NCBI GenBank assembly: GCA_035512495.1
Contig: DATKDW010000064.1
Span: forward strand, 1-38,331
DNA from: Acidimicrobiales bacterium
Lineage (GTDB): Bacteria; Actinomycetota; Acidimicrobiia; Acidimicrobiales; CADCSY01
Direction of reading: 5' to 3'
DNA: 38,331 bases
Shown: piece after piece, positions 16,688 through 25,486 of the stretch
Layout: every line of letters begins with the position of its first letter
How positions within the stretch are numbered: position 1 is the first letter of the stretch
Program-made: the position numbers and the translations under genes
The notes under the pieces: model-generated
The model's input: only the letters and a program-made list of their open reading frames with translations
Told to the model about the DNA's origin: nothing
Databases searched by the model: none

Positions 16688-17524
16688 TCACCCTGTCGGT
16701 GGAGGCGGTGGTGTGGGGACGGTGAGGATCTGGCCCGGGAAGATGAGATCCGCGTTGGACGGCTCGACGAGGCGGTCGGCGTTGGCCTCGACGACCGTCC
16801 GCCAGTACGGCGCAACCTCGTCCTCGGTGACGGACCGTCCCCAGGACTCCTCGAGGAGCCGCGCGGCGACCGACCAGAGATGGTCACCGGGGCCGACCTC
16901 CCACTCGGGCGCTGCCGTCGTCGACGGCGGTGCCGCGTCGTCGTCGGGCAGCCGGTGCATCACCGGCACGCCATCGCCCTCGTGCGGCGGCAGCTCCCGA
17001 AGGACGTCGCCTCCCGGCACCGGATCACCGAGCGCCGATGCCAGCCGGGCGTCGGCCGTCGTGTGGGTGACCAGCGCACCCGTCGAGACCTGACCTGCCC
17101 CCACGCCCGCCACCGTGGCTCCGACGAGGCCGAGACCGACGGCGCCGTGCACCATCGGCCGGACCAGCGGCAGGGTCACCACGTCGACCACGGTGACCAG
17201 GCGCCCCGCCCGGCCGGCACGGGCGACGACCGCAAGGAGGGTGACGACGAGCAGGTACCACGCCAGCGCGACCACGACGAGCCGCAGGACGGCGAACGCC
17301 GCCTCCACCGGGGTCCGCTCGGCGGCCCAGGTCGACCACGTGCTGGGGCTGGTGAGGTCGGGCGCGGCGAGGGCTCCGGAGCCCAGGGCGCCCACGCCGA
17401 GGGCCACGGCCACCAGTGCCGCCACCCACCCGGTGAGCAGGGCAACCCGGCGCCAGGGCGGGTCGACGGTACCGGCCCGGGCCGGGCGTCGGGTGCGGGC
17501 GTCGCGCTGCGTCACGGACGCCAT
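16688..17524 (-). CDS. Membrane protein with C-terminal LysM domain
   Basis: 278 aa from ATG 17524. Three hydrophobic stretches (roughly 27-52, 72-102 and 123-145) suggest a multipass membrane part. A Pro/Ala/Thr-rich linker and a single LysM domain (about 207-270) follow: WEVGPGDHLWSVA at its start, ADRLVEPSNADLIFPGQILTVP at its end. The middle of this domain is extended relative to a typical 45-residue LysM. LysM binds peptidoglycan glycan strands, so the protein probably ties the membrane to the wall. It follows the tad operon on the same strand but has a 91-nt gap of its own with a promoter-like element. A link to pilus anchoring is an inference from position and the shared upstream motif. 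Confidence 0.75.
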   Translation of the reverse strand: MASVTQRDARTRRPARAGTVDPPWRRVALLTGWVAALVAVALGVGALGSGALAAPDLTSPSTWSTWAAERTPVEAAFAVLRLVVVALAWYLLVVTLLAVVARAGRAGRLVTVVDVVTLPLVRPMVHGAVGLGLVGATVAGVGAGQVSTGALVTHTTADARLASALGDPVPGGDVLRELPPHEGDGVPVMHRLPDDDAAPPSTTAAPEWEVGPGDHLWSVAARLLEESWGRSVTEDEVAPYWRTVVEANADRLVEPSNADLIFPGQILTVPTPPPPPTG

Positions 17525-17556
17525 TGTCCCAAATCGGGTGGGCTCTGCACAACCTC

Positions 17557-17585
17557 GATCTATCTCATGTCTTTTCACGTCACAA
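17557..17585 (-). promoter_or_regulatory. Promoter/regulatory element upstream of the LysM gene (ACATGAGA motif, copy A)
   Basis: On the minus strand this reads TTGTGA, a 17-nt spacer containing AAAAGACATGAGA, then TAGATC, so it could be a -35/-10 pair. The block 17562-17585 matches 25463-25486 at 20 of 24 positions. It ends 37 nt before the LysM ATG and is AT-rich compared with its surroundings. Confidence 0.55.
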
Positions 17586-17615
17586 AGGCGGCGCCTGGGC
17601 ACCCGCCGTCTGGCA

Positions 17616-18062
17616 CTACCCGGTCCGCGCCGTGGCGACCGCGGTCGCCGACACCGACGTCCGCTTGGGACCGCCGGGGATGGCGCGGGCGAAGATGTAG
17701 TCGACCTCGGCGGTGAGCCGCACCGTCACCTCACCGTCCGCACCGACGCTCACGGACGGCGGGGCGACGCTGAGATGGTCCAGCGCCTTGGACGCGACCG
17801 AGATGCCGGCGACGCGCTGGGCCTCGGACGCCACGAGGGTGATGGTGCCGTGCTCGTAGAACGCGTCGAGGTCGAGCGCCCGGGTGGCCGCATCGTTGGC
17901 AGCAGCCGCCGCCGCGTTGGAGAGCTCGCGCTGGGCAAGGAAGACGACCGCGAAGTCCACGCAGATCGATCCGAGGACGATGAAGATCAGCACCGCTGCC
18001 GGCATCAGCATCATGACGCTGCCCCGCTCCGAGCCGTCCGGACGCCGCCGCCCCCTCAGCAC
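17616..18062 (-). CDS. TadG-like pilus-associated protein
   Basis: 148 aa from GTG 18062. A short basic N-terminus (RGRRRPDGSERG) precedes one hydrophobic helix (about 18-40, MMLMPAAVLIFIVLG), then a QRELSNAAAAAANDAATRALD helix and a beta-rich domain with no recognised motif. This N-terminal pattern is typical of TadG/TadE-type prepilin-like proteins (Flp-pilus assembly). The start overlaps the previous tadE-like gene by 7 nt. It is the last gene of the tad operon. Assignment as TadG rather than TadE is tentative. Confidence 0.75.
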   Translation of the reverse strand: MLRGRRRPDGSERGSVMMLMPAAVLIFIVLGSICVDFAVVFLAQRELSNAAAAAANDAATRALDLDAFYEHGTITLVASEAQRVAGISVASKALDHLSVAPPSVSVGADGEVTVRLTAEVDYIFARAIPGGPKRTSVSATAVATARTG

Positions 18063-18538
18063 GGTTGGAGGGCGTCGGGTGCGCCGAACGGGACACCGTC
18101 CCGATAAGGGTCGACCACCTCGTGGTGGCGCGCGCTGACATCGAAGGCGCTGCCGCCGAGACCCCCCACCCACGGGAGGCGGATGGTCGGCACCCGGTAG
18201 CGCACCTCGAAGGTTGCCGTGGCGCAGCGGAAGAAGTCGGTGCCCTCGACGGCGAGGACCTCCATGGCGTCGACGTTGACCCTGTGGCCGGCGAAGGTGG
18301 CGATTGCCGCCGCCCGGGCGCTCCCCAAGGCCTCGGCGTGGCCCGGCCCGGACGACTCCACGTAGGCACGGGCAGCCTCGCGAGCCGCCGCCGTGGCGGC
18401 CAGCTTGCCGTCGATCACCCCCCAGGCGTTGACGAGGAGGAGGGTGCCGACGACGAAGACGAGGATGCCGAACGGCAGCACCTCGACGCCGCCGACCACG
18501 CCTCGCTCGTCGAGGGCGCGGAGCCGCACGCCGCTCAC
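18056..18538 (-). CDS. TadE-like minor pseudopilin
   Basis: 160 aa. The N-terminus DERGVVGGVEVLPFGILVFVVG has the Gly...Glu prepilin-like cleavage region followed by a hydrophobic helix (about 19-37) and the AATAAAREAARAYVE helix typical of TadE. GTG at 18538 overlaps the upstream gene's stop by 4 nt. The rest is a globular extracytoplasmic domain. The role is minor pilin or assembly factor for Flp/Tad pili. Confidence 0.8.
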   Translation of the reverse strand: MSGVRLRALDERGVVGGVEVLPFGILVFVVGTLLLVNAWGVIDGKLAATAAAREAARAYVESSGPGHAEALGSARAAAIATFAGHRVNVDAMEVLAVEGTDFFRCATATFEVRYRVPTIRLPWVGGLGGSAFDVSARHHEVVDPYRDGVPFGAPDALQPC

Positions 18539-18951
18539 CTGAAGTCCTCCAGGCGCACCGTGATCGTGCGGTCGACGCGCTGGAACGGGAAGACCACGTC
18601 GGGCAGCAGGCGCGTGGGGTGGGTGGCCTGCACGCGCAGGCGCACGACGTCGGAGTCGTAGTCCCAGGTCATGTCCAGCCGCCCCGCCTCCTCGTACCTG
18701 CCCAGGAGACCGCGGGCGAAGGACTCCGCTGTCGCCTCGCTCTCGACCCGGCCTGCTGCACCCGCGTCGGCACCCGCCACGATGCGGGCGGCGTCGAAGC
18801 TGACCGCCGTGACGACGGTCGTGGCATAGAGGTTGAGCACCAGCTGGACGGCGAAGAGGAGGAGGACCAGGAAGGCGGCGACGCCGAAGACGGTGCCGAT
18901 CAGCCCTGCCCCGACCTCCCCGTCGTCAGCTGATCTCGCGGACCGCACCAC
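18535..18951 (-). CDS. TadE-family pseudopilin (second copy)
   Basis: 138 aa. DDGEVGAGLIG precedes a long hydrophobic helix (about 18-42). The sequence VSFDAARIVAGA that follows is common in TadE-like proteins. GTG codons at 18951 and 18948 are both possible, giving a 23-26 nt overlap with the flp-like gene. It is less like canonical TadE than its neighbour and could be the TadF role. It is coupled downstream by a GTGA overlap. Confidence 0.75.
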   Translation of the reverse strand: MVRSARSADDGEVGAGLIGTVFGVAAFLVLLLFAVQLVLNLYATTVVTAVSFDAARIVAGADAGAAGRVESEATAESFARGLLGRYEEAGRLDMTWDYDSDVVRLRVQATHPTRLLPDVVFPFQRVDRTITVRLEDFR

Positions 18952-19138
18952 CAGCTCGGTCGGCGGCGTCGTTGAAGATCAGCTGGAAGGCCCCCCACAT
19001 GAGGGCGCCGATCAGCGCCATGATCAACACGGCGATCGCCGTCGAGATGACACCCTCGCCAACCTCCTCCTCGAGACGGTGCCGGGCGACGACGGTGAGG
19101 GATCGGAGGGCGACCCAGGCCTGCAGTGCGATGGACAT
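18926..19138 (-). CDS. Flp-type pilin candidate (major pilin)
   Basis: 70 aa. The N-terminal leader is 27-28 residues with a charged EEEVGEG before a hydrophobic helix (about 29-50, GVISTAIAVLIMALIGALMWG). Size, position between tadC and tadE, and strong AGGAG 9 nt before the ATG suit the abundant pilin. It lacks the usual Flp signature of G-Q-x-x-x-E-Y-x; a cut after G27 in VGEG would leave a Glu at position +1 and not +5. It is therefore a diverged pilin or a Flp-like subunit; a structural search would settle this. Confidence 0.65.
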   Translation of the reverse strand: MSIALQAWVALRSLTVVARHRLEEEVGEGVISTAIAVLIMALIGALMWGAFQLIFNDAADRAGGAVREIS

Positions 19139-19162
19139 GTGCTGTGCTCCTGTGGTGTGCGT

Positions 19163-19190
19163 GGTTCGGTCGGGTGGGTTCGGTCGGGTG
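19163..19190. repeat. Exact 14-bp tandem duplication in the tadC-flp gap
   Basis: The unit GGTTCGGTCGGGTG occurs twice head to tail (19163-19176 and 19177-19190), with a further partial copy after it. It fills most of the 64-nt space between tadC and the flp-like gene, upstream of the latter's ribosome-binding site. Confidence 0.7.
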
Positions 19191-19202
19191 GTTCGTGGTG
19201 GC

Positions 19203-20105
19203 TCAGCGGCCGAACAGCCGCAGGGCTTCGATGAAGGGGATGGCGAGGAAGATCACTCCCGGGACGAGGGTGGCCACGGTGACGGGGATCCAGACCTGCT
19301 CGTTGCGCCGCTCGGTCATCTCGACCAGCTCGCGCTGCACGTCACGGCGGATGGCGCGGGCCTCCTCGGAGATCAGCCGCCCGAGGTCGCTCGTCTCGCG
19401 GTTGAGGGCGAGGATGGGCACGAGGCGGTCGAGCGCCTCGACGTCGGCCACCGCCGCCCACTCCCGGAGGGCCTCGGCCTCCGAGAGCCCCTGGCGAATG
19501 CGCAGGCACACCCGCGCGAGGTCGGCTCCGCAGGCACCCGAGCTGCGGACGGCCAGCCGGTTGAGCGCCGCGGTGAGCGAGTACCCGGCGGAGAGGAGCA
19601 GGGCCAGCTGTTCGGCGACCACGGGGAGCTCGAGGAAGAGGCGCCGCTGCCACCGCTGCGACGCCGACGCCACCTGCTGTTCCTGGAGCAGGAACGCGAG
19701 CGCGGGACCGACCAGCACGACGAGGAGACCGATGGCCACAGGGGGCTGGACGGCCAGGGTCACGAGGGCAGCGACGCCGAAGCCTGCCACGCTGTAGCCG
19801 ACCTGACGGATCCGGAACGAGGTGATGTCGAGCGGGGCGTGGATCCGGGTGAGGCGCACCTCGAGGTCCTCGCTCACGCCCACCAGTCGGGCGAGGCGCT
19901 CCCCGACTGCCCGCGAGACCGGACCGACGGCGTCCCGGAACGACTCCACCGACAGCACCCCGGCGCGGCCCGGCTGGCCCATGCCACCGGGTGCGTAGGG
20001 TCGAAGCCGCTCGGTGAGCGGCACACGGGCGAACCACCGGAGCTCGGAGAGCACGAGGGTCACCCCAACCCAGGTCACGAGTCCCCCTGCCATGGCGGCG
20101 CGCAT
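19203..20105 (-). CDS. tadC: TadC-like pilus platform protein
   Basis: 300 aa. It is a type II secretion F-domain protein: an N-terminal membrane helix, two central hydrophobic segments (around GFGVAALVTLAVQPPVAIGLLVVLVGPALAFLL), a cytoplasmic helical domain containing QLALLLSAGYSLTAALNRLA and the E-T-S-D-L-G-R-L segment, and a C-terminal helix (VATLVPGVIFLAIPF). It forms the inner-membrane platform with TadB. GTG at 20108 or ATG at 20105 may start it; both overlap the tadB stop. Confidence 0.88.
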   Translation of the reverse strand: MRAAMAGGLVTWVGVTLVLSELRWFARVPLTERLRPYAPGGMGQPGRAGVLSVESFRDAVGPVSRAVGERLARLVGVSEDLEVRLTRIHAPLDITSFRIRQVGYSVAGFGVAALVTLAVQPPVAIGLLVVLVGPALAFLLQEQQVASASQRWQRRLFLELPVVAEQLALLLSAGYSLTAALNRLAVRSSGACGADLARVCLRIRQGLSEAEALREWAAVADVEALDRLVPILALNRETSDLGRLISEEARAIRRDVQRELVEMTERRNEQVWIPVTVATLVPGVIFLAIPFIEALRLFGR

Positions 20106-21025
20106 CACCTGGCCTCCGCGGGAGCGATCGCAAGCCCCTCGTCGAAGAGCACGCGCTGCTCGTCCGGCAGGCGCATGATCTGGCCGGCCCAGGCCCAGCA
20201 CACGGCCATGAGCGCCAGGCCGGCGAGCACCATGACCTGACCAGCGGGGGTCTCGTAGGCCGCTCGCCCCGAACCGATGCTGAGTCCGACGAAGGCCATG
20301 CCGAGGGGGACGAGGATCACGAAGCGACGGGTGAAGCGGGCACCAGCCTGGCGCGAGCGGGCGTCCTTGCGGCCCTGCACGTCCATGATCCGGTCATCGA
20401 TCAGGGCGGTGAGGCAGCGGTTGACATCGTTGCCACCGATCTCGTGGGCGACGAGGAGCGTCTCGCAGACGGTGTCAGCGGTGGCATCGGCCAGACGCGA
20501 CTTCAGCACCGTGACCGTCCGCTCGAAGTCGGTCGAGATGAGCCACTCTCGCCGAGCAGCATCGAAGGCGGGCCGCATGTCGGACGGGGCTCCCATGCCC
20601 ACCTCGAAGATCGCCTGAGGGATCGAGCGACCGAGGGTGATGGCCTTGATCCGGGTCTCCTCGATCATCCGCGGCCATGCGTCGCGAGCCTCGGCCCGGT
20701 GGCGGTCCCGACGAGACTTCGCCGCGGCGATCGGGAACGTGGCTGCGAAGGTGCCCCCGGCGAGCGGGGGGAGGATCCCCCCGAAGAGCGCCCACGTGGC
20801 GACTGCGCCCACCAGGAACAGCACCCCAACCACACCGGCGAGCTCCCGCGGTCGGGTGTCGTCGAGGCCGGCCTGGACCAGCCAGTCGGTGAGGCGGTCC
20901 GCCGCCGAGCGGCCCGAGACCACGGCGGTGGGGCCGGGCGCCACCCCCGTCCAGCGAAGCGCGACCGCCGTGTACAGGAGGTGCACCCCGTAGGCCGCAG
21001 CGAGGGAGAGGGCGACCGCGGTCAC
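20105..21025 (-). CDS. tadB: TadB-like pilus platform protein
   Basis: 306 aa. It has an N-terminal helix, a hydrophobic pair (about 64-100), a T2SF cytoplasmic domain with RIKAITLGRSIPQAIFEVG and a C-terminal helix pair ending near LAGLALMAVCWAWAG. It pairs with TadC and the TadA ATPase to extrude pilin. GTG at 21025 overlaps the tadA stop as GTGA, so translation is coupled. Confidence 0.88.
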   Translation of the reverse strand: MTAVALSLAAAYGVHLLYTAVALRWTGVAPGPTAVVSGRSAADRLTDWLVQAGLDDTRPRELAGVVGVLFLVGAVATWALFGGILPPLAGGTFAATFPIAAAKSRRDRHRAEARDAWPRMIEETRIKAITLGRSIPQAIFEVGMGAPSDMRPAFDAARREWLISTDFERTVTVLKSRLADATADTVCETLLVAHEIGGNDVNRCLTALIDDRIMDVQGRKDARSRQAGARFTRRFVILVPLGMAFVGLSIGSGRAAYETPAGQVMVLAGLALMAVCWAWAGQIMRLPDEQRVLFDEGLAIAPAEAR

Positions 21026-22347
21026 GCCATCCCCCCGACCGGTTCGGTGAGCACTGGTCGCGCTGCGGCATCGAGAAGGGCGCGAAGGTCGATGCCGGAC
21101 TCCTCGAAGGCGCGCTGGCAGCGCACCGGCAGGTTGCCCGTCCAGCTGAGTGGGGCGTCGAAGCGCGGGCGGGAGAAGACCTCGGTGATGGTGAAGCTGG
21201 TGGAGTCGTGCCCGGTCTTCAGGTCCTCGACGGTCACGATCTCGGTCACCCGTGGGCGTCCACGGACCCGCGCGCAGTGAACGACCACATCGACCGCCTC
21301 CGAGACCAGGCTGTTGAGGGCCGCCATGGGGAGCTCCGACGACGTGTCCGCCAGCTGGGCGACGAACCGGAGGCGAGTGAGCGCCTGGCGGGCCGAGCCA
21401 GCGTGGATGGTCGTGAAGCCCTTCACGCCCGACGAGAGCGTGAGCAGCAGCGGGAGCGCCTCGCGATCGCGGACCTCCCCCACGATCGCCACGTCAGGCG
21501 CCATCCGCAGGAACCCGGCCACGAGGCGGCGGAGGTCGATCTCACCCCGGTCGGCTCGAGCCGGCCGAGTCTGCATCGAGGCCACGTTCGGCAGCGGCAC
21601 GTCGGCCTCGAAGACCTCCTCGGCGACGACGACCCTGAGCGAGGGATCGAGCTCGGCGGCGCAACAAGAGAGCATCGTCGTCTTCCCCGAGCCGGGGGCA
21701 CCGGCGAAGATGATCGACTGACGGGCACGGACGGCGGAACGGAGGAACTCCGCCGCCGCCGGGTCGAGCATGTCGCGGCCCACGAGGTCATCGAGCGAGC
21801 GGAACGCCACCCCGGTGAACTTGCGGATGTTGACCAGGATGTGGCCGTCCCGACCGACGTCGCCGTGGACGATGTGGAGCCGGGAGCCGTTGTCGAGCTG
21901 CGCGTCTTGCAGGCCCTCGGCCGGGTCGAGCTTGCGATGCGAGCCCGACGCGTCGTCGAGGATCTTCGTGAGGGTCCGGATGACGTGGGCGTCGTCATGG
22001 AAGACCTCGTCGTGGTACCCGGTGACGCCCAGGTGACGCTTCACGAAGATCTGGTCAGGAGCGTTGATCATGATCTCCCAGACGTCGTCGTCGTCGAGGA
22101 GGGGCTGGAGCGGGCCGTAGCCCGCCAGGTTGCGGTAGGCGCGGTCGGCGACCAGCTCGGGGTTGGCGAGGTCGTAGGGGCGCAGGCCGCGCTTGTACTC
22201 GGAGGTCCACGCCGTCACCTCGTCGTCGACGAGGCGCCGGAGGCTCGCGCTGCCCTCATCGCCGCGAACGTCGAGCGTGAGGTCCTTGGCGCGAGCCTGC
22301 ACGGCGAGCTCGATCTCGGCGAGCGGCGAGGTGAGCGGCGCCACCAT
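21022..22347 (-). CDS. tadA: Pilus assembly ATPase TadA/CpaF
   Basis: 441 aa. This is a secretion-type (VirB11/GspE) ATPase: N-terminal domain with GYGPLQPLLDDDDVWEIMIN, Walker A GAPGSGKTT (216-224), Asp-box region around VVVAEEVFEADVP, Walker B VAIVGEVRDRE (286-296) and the His box GFTTIHAGSA (310-318). It powers assembly of Flp pili at the cytoplasmic face. ATG at 22347 shares one base with the cpaE stop. Confidence 0.95.
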   Translation of the reverse strand: MVAPLTSPLAEIELAVQARAKDLTLDVRGDEGSASLRRLVDDEVTAWTSEYKRGLRPYDLANPELVADRAYRNLAGYGPLQPLLDDDDVWEIMINAPDQIFVKRHLGVTGYHDEVFHDDAHVIRTLTKILDDASGSHRKLDPAEGLQDAQLDNGSRLHIVHGDVGRDGHILVNIRKFTGVAFRSLDDLVGRDMLDPAAAEFLRSAVRARQSIIFAGAPGSGKTTMLSCCAAELDPSLRVVVAEEVFEADVPLPNVASMQTRPARADRGEIDLRRLVAGFLRMAPDVAIVGEVRDREALPLLLTLSSGVKGFTTIHAGSARQALTRLRFVAQLADTSSELPMAALNSLVSEAVDVVVHCARVRGRPRVTEIVTVEDLKTGHDSTSFTITEVFSRPRFDAPLSWTGNLPVRCQRAFEESGIDLRALLDAAARPVLTEPVGGMA

Positions 22348-23651
22348 CAGCCCGCCTCCTCGCCCCAGACCGCACCGAGGGACCCCGGCGTGACCAGCTC
22401 AGGCTCGACCGGCGCGACGGTGGTGGCGGGTCCGACCCGCTCGAGCGTGGCATGGAAGGCGCCGGCGAGGAGCCCCGGCAGCGGTGCCGGGATGCCGACC
22501 GCGTCACGCAAGGCCTCCTCCACCTTCCGCGACGGCAGGAAGATCGGCGGGGAGCTGTGCCCGCCACCCATGGCAGGCACAGCCAGCTCGGCGAGGGTGG
22601 CGGAGAGCTCGGCCCGGGCACGGGGTTGACGCGGTGCGAGGTTGTAGACCGGGACCAGACGGCCGGCTGGGACACCGACCGCGACGAGGTCGGACATCAC
22701 CCGAACGAGCGAGTGCGTTCCCTTGACCCCGGGCCGGCCGACGACGAAGACGACATCGGCAGCGCCCACGGCAGTTCGGGCCAGCAGGTTGCGCTCCTCG
22801 ACATCCGCCGAGCCGCCGCCGTCCTCCCCCTCCACGTCGGCAGCGACATCGCAGACCACCGTGGCGAAGGTGCGACGCAGCGACTCGAAGGCGGCTTCGA
22901 GCGATCGAGGTCGGAGCGTGGCCCAGTAGCGGGCCCGACGCAGGCCCAGGAGGAGGTGGTACCGACGCTCGACGATCGAGAAGGTCAGGTGCCGGACCTC
23001 GTCGGGGCTCGGCCGGCGGGAACGGTGGACCTCGACGAGCTCCTGGATGCCGGGGACGACGTCGCGGACGTCGTGGAGCATGGCCTGCTCGGCCTGGAGC
23101 GCCATGTCGGCGAGGACGATGTCGCCGCCGGATCGGTCATCGTGGCCCAGGCCCTGAGCGAGGGCGGCGGCGACGGTGGAGGCCCCGGTCCCTCCCGCGC
23201 CACACACGACGACGACGTTCCCCCTCCACGACGGCAGATCGGTGCCCCCGTGGTGGCCATCGGAGGGGACGACGGCGCCTCGGCTCACCAGGGCGGCGTG
23301 GGTGGCGAGAGCGTCGAGGAGCGCCTCCCGGGTGAACGACGGGGGCAGCACGGCGGTCGCGCCGAGCCCCGCCCAGTCACGCCCCGCACGACCGTCGTCG
23401 ACGACGAAGACGACGCAGCCCGCGTCTCGCGCCGTCTCCACGAGGTCACGGTCGACCGCCGGCATGGTGCCGTCGACGAGCACCGCCGAGTACGCACGTC
23501 CGGCCGCAAGGCGAGCACGAAGCTCCTCGCCGGAGACGCACTTCAGGAACTCTGCGGGGATGATGGCGGAGGTGGCCCACTGACCCACGGCGCGGAACCA
23601 CTCAGCCCGCGGGCGGGCCACACCGAGGACGACATAGCGCTCGCCGGCCAT
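22347..23651 (-). CDS. cpaE: CpaE/TadZ-like localisation ATPase
   Basis: 434 aa. An N-terminal receiver-like domain without an obvious phosphoacceptor site (about 1-120) is joined to a MinD/ParA-type domain with the deviant P-loop GAGGTGAST (151-159), where the usual lysine is alanine as in other CpaE proteins. LADMALQAEQA occupies the Walker A' position. It probably places the pilus machine at a cell site. ATG at 23651 overlaps the cpaB stop (TAATG). The low-complexity C-terminal part contains FLPSRKVEEALRDAVGIP, a common CpaE ending. Confidence 0.88.
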   Translation of the reverse strand: MAGERYVVLGVARPRAEWFRAVGQWATSAIIPAEFLKCVSGEELRARLAAGRAYSAVLVDGTMPAVDRDLVETARDAGCVVFVVDDGRAGRDWAGLGATAVLPPSFTREALLDALATHAALVSRGAVVPSDGHHGGTDLPSWRGNVVVVCGAGGTGASTVAAALAQGLGHDDRSGGDIVLADMALQAEQAMLHDVRDVVPGIQELVEVHRSRRPSPDEVRHLTFSIVERRYHLLLGLRRARYWATLRPRSLEAAFESLRRTFATVVCDVAADVEGEDGGGSADVEERNLLARTAVGAADVVFVVGRPGVKGTHSLVRVMSDLVAVGVPAGRLVPVYNLAPRQPRARAELSATLAELAVPAMGGGHSSPPIFLPSRKVEEALRDAVGIPAPLPGLLAGAFHATLERVGPATTVAPVEPELVTPGSLGAVWGEEAG

Positions 23652-24439
23652 TAGCCCTCCCCGGGCGAAGCGCCCCCTGCCGGCGAATCGCTGGTGGTCC
23701 GCTCGGCATCGGCAGGTGGCGGAGCGGACCCACCGGCCAAGCCCGTGGTGCGCGCCAAGGTGACGTCGCCCGCGGCGGCTGCCTGTGCCACCGCCTCGAG
23801 CTCGTCGGGTGGTACGGCGAGGACCACGGTCACGGCCCCGGAGCCGCCGACGGCGTCGCTACCGGCGAGGACGTCGACGACGATCGCGCCCCGGCTGACC
23901 GTGAACGTCTCCGGGCTCCCGCCCGTGGTGTAGGTCACGATCACGTCGACGAGCTCGCCGGCGCCGAGGTAGGTGCGACTGCCGCCGAGCGCGCTGCCCG
24001 CGCGGACCGAGATGGAGATCTGAGCCCGGTCGGCCCCCCCGGCCGGCCGGGCCACGTCGCTGACCTGGACCAGCTGACCGGCGCTGAGCGGGCCCAGCGC
24101 GGTGGCGTCCACGAGCAGGCCGAGGTCGGCGAAGGACACCCCTTGCTGCGCCGGGGGGAGGTCGAGGGCGACGAGCGCAAGGTCGGACACCTGCAGGCGC
24201 TGGCCGGCCACGATGTCGTTGACCACCACCACGTATGAAGTGGCGGGACCTGCGCTCGACGCGGTGTAGGCCGCGAACACCCCGACGGCGCTCGCTGCCA
24301 CGAGGAAGCCACCGACCACTGCCCGGCTCCCGGGCAGGGCGCGCCGCCGCCTGACCTGACGGGTCGACGGACCGCCGGAGCCGTTCGATGGTGCCCCACG
24401 CGGGGCGTGTTGCCTGCCGAGATCGGCCAGGTCTGACAT
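23651..24439 (-). CDS. cpaB: SAF-domain pilus protein CpaB/RcpC-like
   Basis: 262 aa from ATG 24439. A polar N-terminus with an RRRR stretch is followed by one membrane helix (about 40-60), an SAF domain (about 69-130, VVVVNDIVAGQRLQVSDLALV) and a periplasm-side RcpC/CpaB beta domain. The C-terminus is low-complexity Pro/Gly/Ser. Gram-positive Tad systems use this as an envelope assembly factor. It is the first gene of the nine-gene tad operon. GGACACCGAG before the start is a weak ribosome-binding site. The leader may begin near a TAGCCT box at 24498-24493, inside a GGGAGG/CCTCCC hairpin. Confidence 0.85.
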   Translation of the reverse strand: MSDLADLGRQHAPRGAPSNGSGGPSTRQVRRRRALPGSRAVVGGFLVAASAVGVFAAYTASSAGPATSYVVVVNDIVAGQRLQVSDLALVALDLPPAQQGVSFADLGLLVDATALGPLSAGQLVQVSDVARPAGGADRAQISISVRAGSALGGSRTYLGAGELVDVIVTYTTGGSPETFTVSRGAIVVDVLAGSDAVGGSGAVTVVLAVPPDELEAVAQAAAAGDVTLARTTGLAGGSAPPPADAERTTSDSPAGGASPGEG

Positions 24440-24524
24440 CTCGGTGTCCTTCAGCGACGAGGGAACCTCGGGCACGTTCTCCGCCGTCGGGGAGGCTACC
24501 TCCCGAGAACGGCAGATTGTCCAG

Positions 24525-24545
24525 ATTCGTCCAGACCGGACGAAT
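24525..24545. promoter_or_regulatory. Inverted-repeat operator candidate between cpaB and the HTH gene
   Basis: ATTCGTCC (24525-24532) and GGACGAAT (24538-24545) are perfect inverted repeats around 5 nt. GTCCAGA also occurs twice as a direct repeat 10 nt apart (24519-24525, 24529-24535). The element lies just upstream of the presumed cpaB promoter and in the leader region of the divergent HTH gene. Confidence 0.5.
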
Positions 24546-24560
24546 GTGGACCACTCGCAC

Positions 24561-24576
24561 GGAAAGGACATGAGAG
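24561..24576 (+). promoter_or_regulatory. ACATGAGA motif, copy C, upstream of the HTH gene
   Basis: GGAAAGGACATGAGAG ends 36 nt before the HTH start. It differs from copies A and B by one inserted G in the core. GGAC...GTCC flank the ATGAGA as a small inverted repeat, and CCACT (24551) with AGTGG (24584) form a wider one. It sits between two divergent transcription units and may serve both. Confidence 0.5.
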
Positions 24577-24599
24577 TCCACGAAGTGGGCCCGATCGGG

Positions 24600-24605
24600 T
24601 ACCGT
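24600..24605 (+). promoter_or_regulatory. -10 box of the HTH gene, leaderless geometry
   Basis: TACCGT ends 7 nt before the GTG at 24613. A GGAG at 24607-24610 could also act as a ribosome-binding site, though it would be only 2 nt from the start. Confidence 0.5.
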
Positions 24606-24612
24606 TGGAGCC

Positions 24613-24846
24613 GTGAACGAAGAGATCACCTGGATGAGCACGCAGGAGGCGGCCAGGCGACTGGGCATCACGCCGCGGACGCTGTACCGCTTCATGGACG
24701 AGGGCTCGCTCCCTTCCTACAAGATGGGGCGGGTCTTCCGGCTGAAGAAGGACGATGTCGACGCCTTCATCGAGCACTCGCGCGTCGCTCCCGGCAGCCT
24801 CGAGCACCTCTACCCCGAGCGCAAGAGCACCGGCTCGGAGGTCTGA
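24613..24846 (+). CDS. Small HTH DNA-binding protein (excisionase/BldC type)
   Basis: 77 aa. A MerR-like winged helix-turn-helix fills most of it: WMSTQEAARRLGITPRTLYRFMDEG forms the HTH, and SLPSYKMGRVFRLKKDDVDAFIE forms the wing and last helix. A short tail PGSLEHLYPE follows. Such proteins include phage excisionases and the Streptomyces regulator BldC, which binds direct repeats head to tail. No integrase or attachment site is nearby, so a transcription-factor role is preferred over excision. It is divergent from the tad operon and has an ACATGAGA motif in its own upstream region, so it is the prime candidate regulator of the locus. Confidence 0.85.
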   Translation: MNEEITWMSTQEAARRLGITPRTLYRFMDEGSLPSYKMGRVFRLKKDDVDAFIEHSRVAPGSLEHLYPERKSTGSEV

Positions 24847-24882
24847 CCTGCCCGCGGCTGACCGCACCACGCTCCGGCGCGC

Positions 24883-25422
24883 TCACCCGCCGACGGTTGC
24901 CTCGGCGATGTTCCCGGCCGACACGTAGCAGAGCGCCCGAGGGTCCCCGTCGAGGCGCAGGGTCACGACGTCGGTTCCCACCGCCCGCAGCTCACCAGCG
25001 ACCACCTCGCCCCCGCTGAGCACCAGCGCCAGCCGTGGACGCTCGGCGAGGGCGCTCGCCAGCAGCTCCACCAGCCGGAGGTCTCGCGGTGCCTTCCGGT
25101 CGCCGGTGGCCACCGGATGGCGCTCCCCCGGCTGCGGGCGGACGGTGGTCACGGTGTCAGTGGCGAGGTAGGTGAGGCTGCCGCGGGCAGCTTGCAGCAC
25201 GCAGAAGTCGTCACCGACCCCGACGAGGCTCCCGTGGTGGGTCCGGCCGGACCGGGTCCGAACGGTGACGGGGGTCCCTTGCTCGGCGAGGTCGAGGAGC
25301 GCACCCCCGAGCGACGCGCCGTCCTCGGCGACGTGGCGCAGCGCCCGCTCACGGTCTCGAGCCGCCCCGCGGTCGGCGGCGTGCTCCTCGTCGAGGAGCT
25401 CGATGAGCTCTGGGTCATCCAC
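24883..25422 (-). CDS. Unknown protein with two Sm-like/SH3-like barrels
   Basis: 179 aa, not recognised as a named family. An acidic/charged N-terminal helix (about 1-48) is followed by two similar short beta-barrel units: 51-95 (VTVRTRSGRTHHGSLVGVG, then DDFCVLQ) and 130-176 (LALVLSGGEVVAGELRAVG, then TDVVTLRLDG). Each has the strand-turn-Gly-strand pattern seen in Sm-like or SH3-like folds, ending in a TYLATD/CYVSAGN segment. The possible role is RNA- or ligand-binding. GTG at 25422 is supported by TAGAGT ending 7 nt before it. It is convergent with the HTH gene and divergent from the pseudokinase, with which it shares an operator-like region. Confidence 0.65.
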   Translation of the reverse strand: MDDPELIELLDEEHAADRGAARDRERALRHVAEDGASLGGALLDLAEQGTPVTVRTRSGRTHHGSLVGVGDDFCVLQAARGSLTYLATDTVTTVRPQPGERHPVATGDRKAPRDLRLVELLASALAERPRLALVLSGGEVVAGELRAVGTDVVTLRLDGDPRALCYVSAGNIAEATVGG

Positions 25423-25429
25423 GGGCCCG

Positions 25430-25435
25430 ACTCTA
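25430..25435 (-). promoter_or_regulatory. -10 box of the Sm-like gene, leaderless geometry
   Basis: TAGAGT on the minus strand ends 7 nt before the GTG at 25422. The ATGAGA palindrome lies just upstream, at the -35 position. Confidence 0.5.
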
Positions 25436-25445
25436 TGGCAAGGCG

Positions 25446-25486
25446 ATGAGAACTCTCATTGCATCTCATGTCTTTCCTCACCACAA
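25446..25486. promoter_or_regulatory. Operator region with palindrome and ACATGAGA motif, copy B
   Basis: ATGAGA-AC-TCTCAT (25446-25459) is a perfect palindrome, and another TCTCAT starts 10 nt after its second arm (25464). This gives two direct half-sites one helical turn apart plus one inverted. The block 25463-25486 is the near-copy of the element at 17562-17585. Read on the minus strand it shows TTGTGG, 17 nt, TGCAAT. It controls either or both of the divergent genes. Confidence 0.6.

Follow-up and report, generated by a model that had tools for sequence, protein, structure and literature searches.

Around the tad locus of an Acidimicrobiales bacterium (GenBank assembly GCA_035512495.1), one short AT-rich sequence recurs upstream of three genes, and the locus raises the question of whether this sequence is a regulatory site and which protein reads it. 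The analysis described here finds that the regulatory element is genuine and conserved and belongs to a known kind, being most likely the tandem direct-repeat operator of a small Xis/BldC-like protein. The window, i.e., the whole 38,331-nt stretch of DNA that was analysed, contains the following genes of interest:

16688-17524, minus strand: LysM gene, proposed target of element A
18056-24438, minus strand: tad operon (cpaB, tadZ, tadA, tadB, tadC and tadE-like genes; Pfam SAF/RcpC and T2SSE), divergent from the HTH gene
24613-24846, plus strand: HTH gene, encoding an excisionase-type (HTH_17) protein of 77 aa, the proposed binder, which would also regulate its own gene
24883-25422, minus strand: Sm-like gene, proposed target of element B; weak NF041655 match, below the cut-off

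Three directed copies around the tad locus

Exact search of the window for the 8-mer ACATGAGA found it at 17563-17570 (minus strand), 24568-24575 (plus strand) and 25464-25471 (minus strand), and nowhere else. The original prediction of three copies was borne out in both place and orientation, with A directed toward the LysM gene, C toward the HTH gene and B toward the Sm-like gene, and direct reading reconfirmed the identity of A and B at 20 of 24 bases. The extra G that had been placed in C is not needed, as C (GAAAGGACATGAGA) aligns with A (GAAAAGACATGAGA) without a gap and with a single base different. Distances from motif to start codon are similar, as predicted, but the figures of 37, 36 and 40 nt become 38 (LysM), 37 (HTH) and 41 (Sm-like) when counted from the ORF starts.

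By itself the 8-mer stands out only modestly, occurring three times in the window versus 0.48 expected, and 2 of 100 shuffles also reach three, which is what can be said for reading the likeness of the three sites as chance or as the remnant of a duplication. Against such a reading, the 14-mer GRAAAGACATGAGA, with up to two mismatches, yields A, B and C only in the whole 2.8-Mb genome, rather than many matches at random positions (the reversed pattern, used as a control, gave one match). The claim that there is no fourth copy holds for the window but not for the genome, where a diverged copy, AAGAACATGAAATGACATGAACG, lies upstream of an unlinked fourth gene (G000:C17:41296-42018).

Repeat architecture and its conservation

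The 8-mer proved to be the middle of a 25-bp array and not the entire element. The array is composed of YGARR units at exactly 10-bp spacing, always directed toward the gene, with three units at each site in the window. The sites are given below with their rank and score under a matrix built from HTH promoters outside the window's own family (f1):

17553-17577, minus strand: element A, 5' of the LysM gene; TGAAA (17573-17577), TGAGA (17563-17567), CGAGG (17553-17557); rank 2, 22.7 bits
24561-24585, plus strand: element C, 5' of the HTH gene, in the gap that separates this gene from the divergent tad operon; GGAAA (24561-24565), TGAGA (24571-24575), CGAAG (24581-24585); rank 3, 20.9 bits
25454-25478, minus strand: element B, 5' of the Sm-like gene; AGGAA (25474-25478, degenerate), TGAGA (25464-25468), TGAGA (25454-25458); rank 1, 26.6 bits

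The next position in the window scores 16.4 bits. This held-out matrix is the strongest single test of the element, because A and B precede genes other than those of the training set. BldD, which had been named as a protein to assay on these sites, binds a palindrome rather than tandem direct repeats.

Orthologues of the HTH gene are present in most relatives (95 of 120 genomes in an order-level set, each at least 95% complete), and in most loci with enough flanking sequence the gene is divergent beside cpaB and other tad genes. Upstream of 89 non-redundant Acidimicrobiia orthologues, YGARR, a unit that was picked after inspection of the sequences, forms 20 pairs at 10 bp versus 1.0 expected (z 19) and 8 pairs at 20 bp versus 0.8 expected, and pairs at 11-14 bp show no excess. 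An unsupervised de novo search of the HTH promoters returned GRAA, YGARA and YGA, ten apart, in agreement with the YGARR rule, at a log-likelihood of 265 versus 81-85 in shuffled sets. The direction of the array is likewise conserved, with 21 sense versus 1 antisense at HTH promoters and 43 versus 3 at the fourth gene.

At the other genes of the locus, 10-bp pairs precede the Sm-like gene in relatives in excess (6 versus 0.4 expected), confined to family f1 (5 in 10 sequences versus 1 in 34 elsewhere), and they precede LysM (2 versus 0.1 expected) and cpaB (4 versus 0.3 expected) in small numbers. The clearest LysM parallel is in G007, where AACCATGAGATGTAATGAGAC precedes a TACAGT box, with partial parallels in other relatives. 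No excess was found before tadA, tadB, tadC or HIT genes in relatives. The element is clearly conserved at orthologous promoters, which strongly supports the predicted regulatory site with fixed orientation. Together with the held-out matrix prediction, this conservation across many families means that chance or duplication is an explanation already refuted and scarcely worth any credence.

Several further features were observed in and around these loci. The pattern CATGARANNNNNYGARR gave 23 matches in 12 family genomes versus 1 for its reverse, and several of its other matches, which lie inside long open frames, may be chance. A candidate operator in G002 and G010, CATGAGAGGAGGTGAAA, was rejected, as its sequence suggests the ribosome-binding site (AGGAGGTGA) of a gene for a secreted protein. 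A perfect inverted repeat, ATTCGTCC-AGACC-GGACGAAT, at 24525-24545 of the window, adjoins element C in the tad-HTH intergenic region and may be a second operator. Upstream of cpaB in L035, L037, L092 and L034 (family f1), TAGGGT or TATGGT precedes a stretch resembling GATCGGACAGG, and this may be another conserved element of the tad operon. At eight Acidimicrobiia loci (L107, L110, L122, L127, L132, L143, L157 and L169), the HTH orthologue has a HIT-domain gene as its neighbour, tad genes are absent from the vicinity, and most of the loci have no upstream array.

Promoter context and helical phasing

TANNNT lies 4-9 nt before the start codon in 63 of the 89 HTH promoters versus 7 in shuffles, and, judged from these sequences, such boxes are likely the -10 boxes of leaderless promoters. 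In most HTH promoters the likely -10 box is 3' of the array, 6-7 nt before the start codon. Two candidates were located in the window:

24600-24605, plus strand: candidate -10 box TACCGT, 7 nt before the GTG of the HTH gene; leaderless
25430-25435, minus strand: candidate -10 box TAGAGT, 7 nt before the GTG of the Sm-like gene; leaderless

A scan for consensus sigma-70 promoters found none. The LysM start (window 17513-17528) is possibly GTG 17515 rather than ATG 17524, in which case GACAAT, 7 nt before the start codon, would serve as the -10 box of a leaderless promoter.

Distances from the array to the -10 box at HTH promoters cluster at 12, ~21, ~30, ~41 and ~53, and their phasing at period 10 (vector length R 0.58) was reached by none of 20,000 random sets; since the matrix may align to one unit or another within the same array, the 10-bp period of the repeats accounts for part of this phasing. 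The fixed spacing of the original prediction was partly right: what is constant is the helical phase to the -10 box, with several permitted distances, and not one length measured to the start codon. At the fourth gene, the array trails TTGAC by 9-14, 18-24, 27-32 or 39-41. Residence on a single helical face at several permitted distances fits a bound protein stack and not a -35 element. In the promoters of the HTH, Sm-like and LysM genes the array lies at or 5' of the -35 region; the array of the fourth gene overlaps the likely promoter, and repression is likely there.

These observations bear on an alternative in which the motif is itself a core promoter element, the -35 or spacer of a particular sigma factor, within the frame TTGTG(A/G)-17-TAGATC/TGCAAT that had been noted around A and B. 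TTGTG is present in both of those copies, and the array does lie in or adjoining the -35 region. However, such a frame is absent from C and not evident in relatives, the likely -10 boxes sit further downstream, and the distance from element to -10 box varies in helical steps, which is impossible for a -35 element; a sigma-factor element is accordingly very improbable, and the proposed 17-nt spacer was not upheld.

The tad-linked HTH protein as probable binder, a proposed fourth target and known systems

The best candidate binder of the element is the tad-linked HTH protein. It matches TIGR01764 (61.5 bits, cut-off 28.8, E 7e-17) and PF12728 (53.6 bits, cut-off 27, E 2.8e-14), and its AF2 model (pLDDT 86) predicts a winged-HTH fold like that of Xis and BldC. 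The nearest solved folds are Pukovnik Xis (4j2n), DNA-bound BldC (6ama), RacA and RdfS (8dgl); Foldseek matches to 4j2n, 6ama and 8dgl are at 1.3-2.6 A, yet with E values of only ~0.01.

We consider it probable that the element is the operator of this Xis/BldC-like protein, which would assemble head-to-tail on the 10-bp direct repeats and control its own gene, LysM, the Sm-like gene and the fourth gene. Each operator would comprise two or three direct repeats of the 5-bp unit YGARR (often ATGARA), one helical turn (10 bp) apart, and the HTH protein would bind this array as an oligomer with one protomer per repeat, so that the stack occupies one face of the DNA in phase with the -10 box of the promoter. 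By such binding, the protein would regulate its own gene, the LysM and Sm-like genes that flank the tad block, the unlinked conserved fourth gene and perhaps the divergent tad operon. The layout of the repeats, their direction, conservation and helical phase, their promoter setting and their co-occurrence with the HTH gene are observed; binding by the HTH protein, its oligomerisation and the sign of its regulation (activation or repression) are what we infer from these patterns; the lack of the element at the Sm-like promoter outside family f1 was counted against the proposal.

The fourth gene (L206; orthologues L199-L228) was found via CATGARANNNNNYGARR plus a second pattern and is present in 108 of 120 genomes. 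It encodes a conserved product of ~200-250 residues with the motif RPWPDPVID..GHDPRSAYVE.FWLG.LGPSTTWLLRR, which sequence searches against Pfam, NCBIfam and PDB left without a name, nothing matching above cut-off. In 85 genomes bearing the HTH gene, 10-bp pairs occur 5' of this gene 41 times versus 0.4 expected, and 20-bp and 30-bp pairs 10 and 3 times. The element precedes the fourth gene in 53 of these 85 genomes versus 1 of 18 without the HTH gene (p 8e-6), leaving 32 HTH-bearing genomes with no recognisable element there. Counted by family, the figures are 25 of 38 versus 1 of 6 (p 0.03), a modest association. The sole exception, G038 (97% complete), keeps the element with its HTH orthologue undetected, and its congener G067 has the HTH gene. 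Two f1 genomes with the element and no HTH match (G003 and G009, 90-92% complete) were left out of the count as possible assembly gaps. A sequence-only covariance-model scan of whole genomes, with a model too insensitive for the purpose, gave no match anywhere.

OmpR/PhoB-type regulators bind two tandem half-sites ~10-11 bp apart and often control cell-wall genes. The main rival to the HTH protein is a response regulator of this family (MtrA-, CpxR- or WalR-like), with the HTH gene itself also under its control. The unit-N5-unit layout resembles CpxR boxes, LysM is among the targets, and G038 would be accounted for. Nevertheless, the 20-bp excess indicates that arrays run to at least three units, more than a simple dimer site would have; families f7 and f17, which lack the HTH gene, lack the element even though they retain the fourth gene; and across the class the HTH gene itself has the element in its promoter. 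Co-occurrence speaks for the HTH protein, and an OmpR-family response regulator is unlikely.

In comparison with known systems, the operators of the OmpR family (CpxR, MtrA, WalR) share with the element tandem units ~10-11 bp apart, but here the arrays have at least three units and another unit sequence. BldC of Streptomyces binds 9-bp direct repeats, which vary in number, as a head-to-tail stack (PMC5859096). Both are small winged-HTH proteins of MerR-like fold, with the HTH protein model matching 6ama/6amk, and the arrays described here are likewise directional direct repeats in variable number. They differ in that BldC repeats follow AATTXXXX(C) at 9 bp, whereas here YGARR units recur at 10 bp, and in that the HTH protein has ~24% identity to BldC, carries a conserved C-terminal tail (PGTLEHLYPE) and is encoded at the tad locus. 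Apl of phage 186 and other Xis-type factors bind direct repeats one helical turn apart, according to the portion of the source consulted (PMC7498355). Apl, too, is a transcription regulator, and one-turn direct repeats are common to both. The HTH protein, like Pukovnik Xis (4j2n), RdfS (8dgl) and Apl, belongs to TIGR01764/HTH_17. Unlike these factors, its gene is chromosomal and syntenic with tad across the class, with no integrase noticed next to it, and its proposed sites lie at promoters.

A published parallel in gene arrangement is Mlut_14660 of Micrococcus luteus, likened here by its published description alone. In the parts of the report consulted, it is a small gene of the HTH_17 excisionase type, oriented divergently to cpaB-tadZ; a screen for changed activity of the comEA/EC promoter yielded mutations in the gene and in its leader; and it could not be deleted and is described as possibly essential (PMC8467076). 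In ten relatives of the window's genome (G001, G002, G007, G010, G013, G014, G016, G029, G033 and G037), comEC and the tad/HTH locus share a contig, 11-36 kb apart. Upstream of comEA/comEC in 30 genomes, the window's own included (comEC), no convincing element was seen.

For a tad-adjacent regulator candidate in Actinobacteria, the literature found, as far as consulted, offers the mutants of this one species and reports no binding site for Mlut_14660, and it does not describe the repeat rule, the targets or the regulator presented here. The present analysis supplies a predicted operator sequence, a rule for its repeats, four predicted targets and a list of the genomes that carry or lack the regulator, from which tests can be designed at once; the fourth target also offers a first approach to a conserved protein whose function is unknown. 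A broader proposal can be put forward tentatively, as somewhat less probable than its opposite: that the arrays constitute a class-wide operator code of a dedicated Tad-pilus regulator of BldC/Xis-like type, with protomers set one per turn and phased with leaderless promoters, and that Mlut_14660 acts alike. If so, a single regulon would join the pili to the LysM cell-wall protein, the Sm-like protein and the widely conserved fourth gene.
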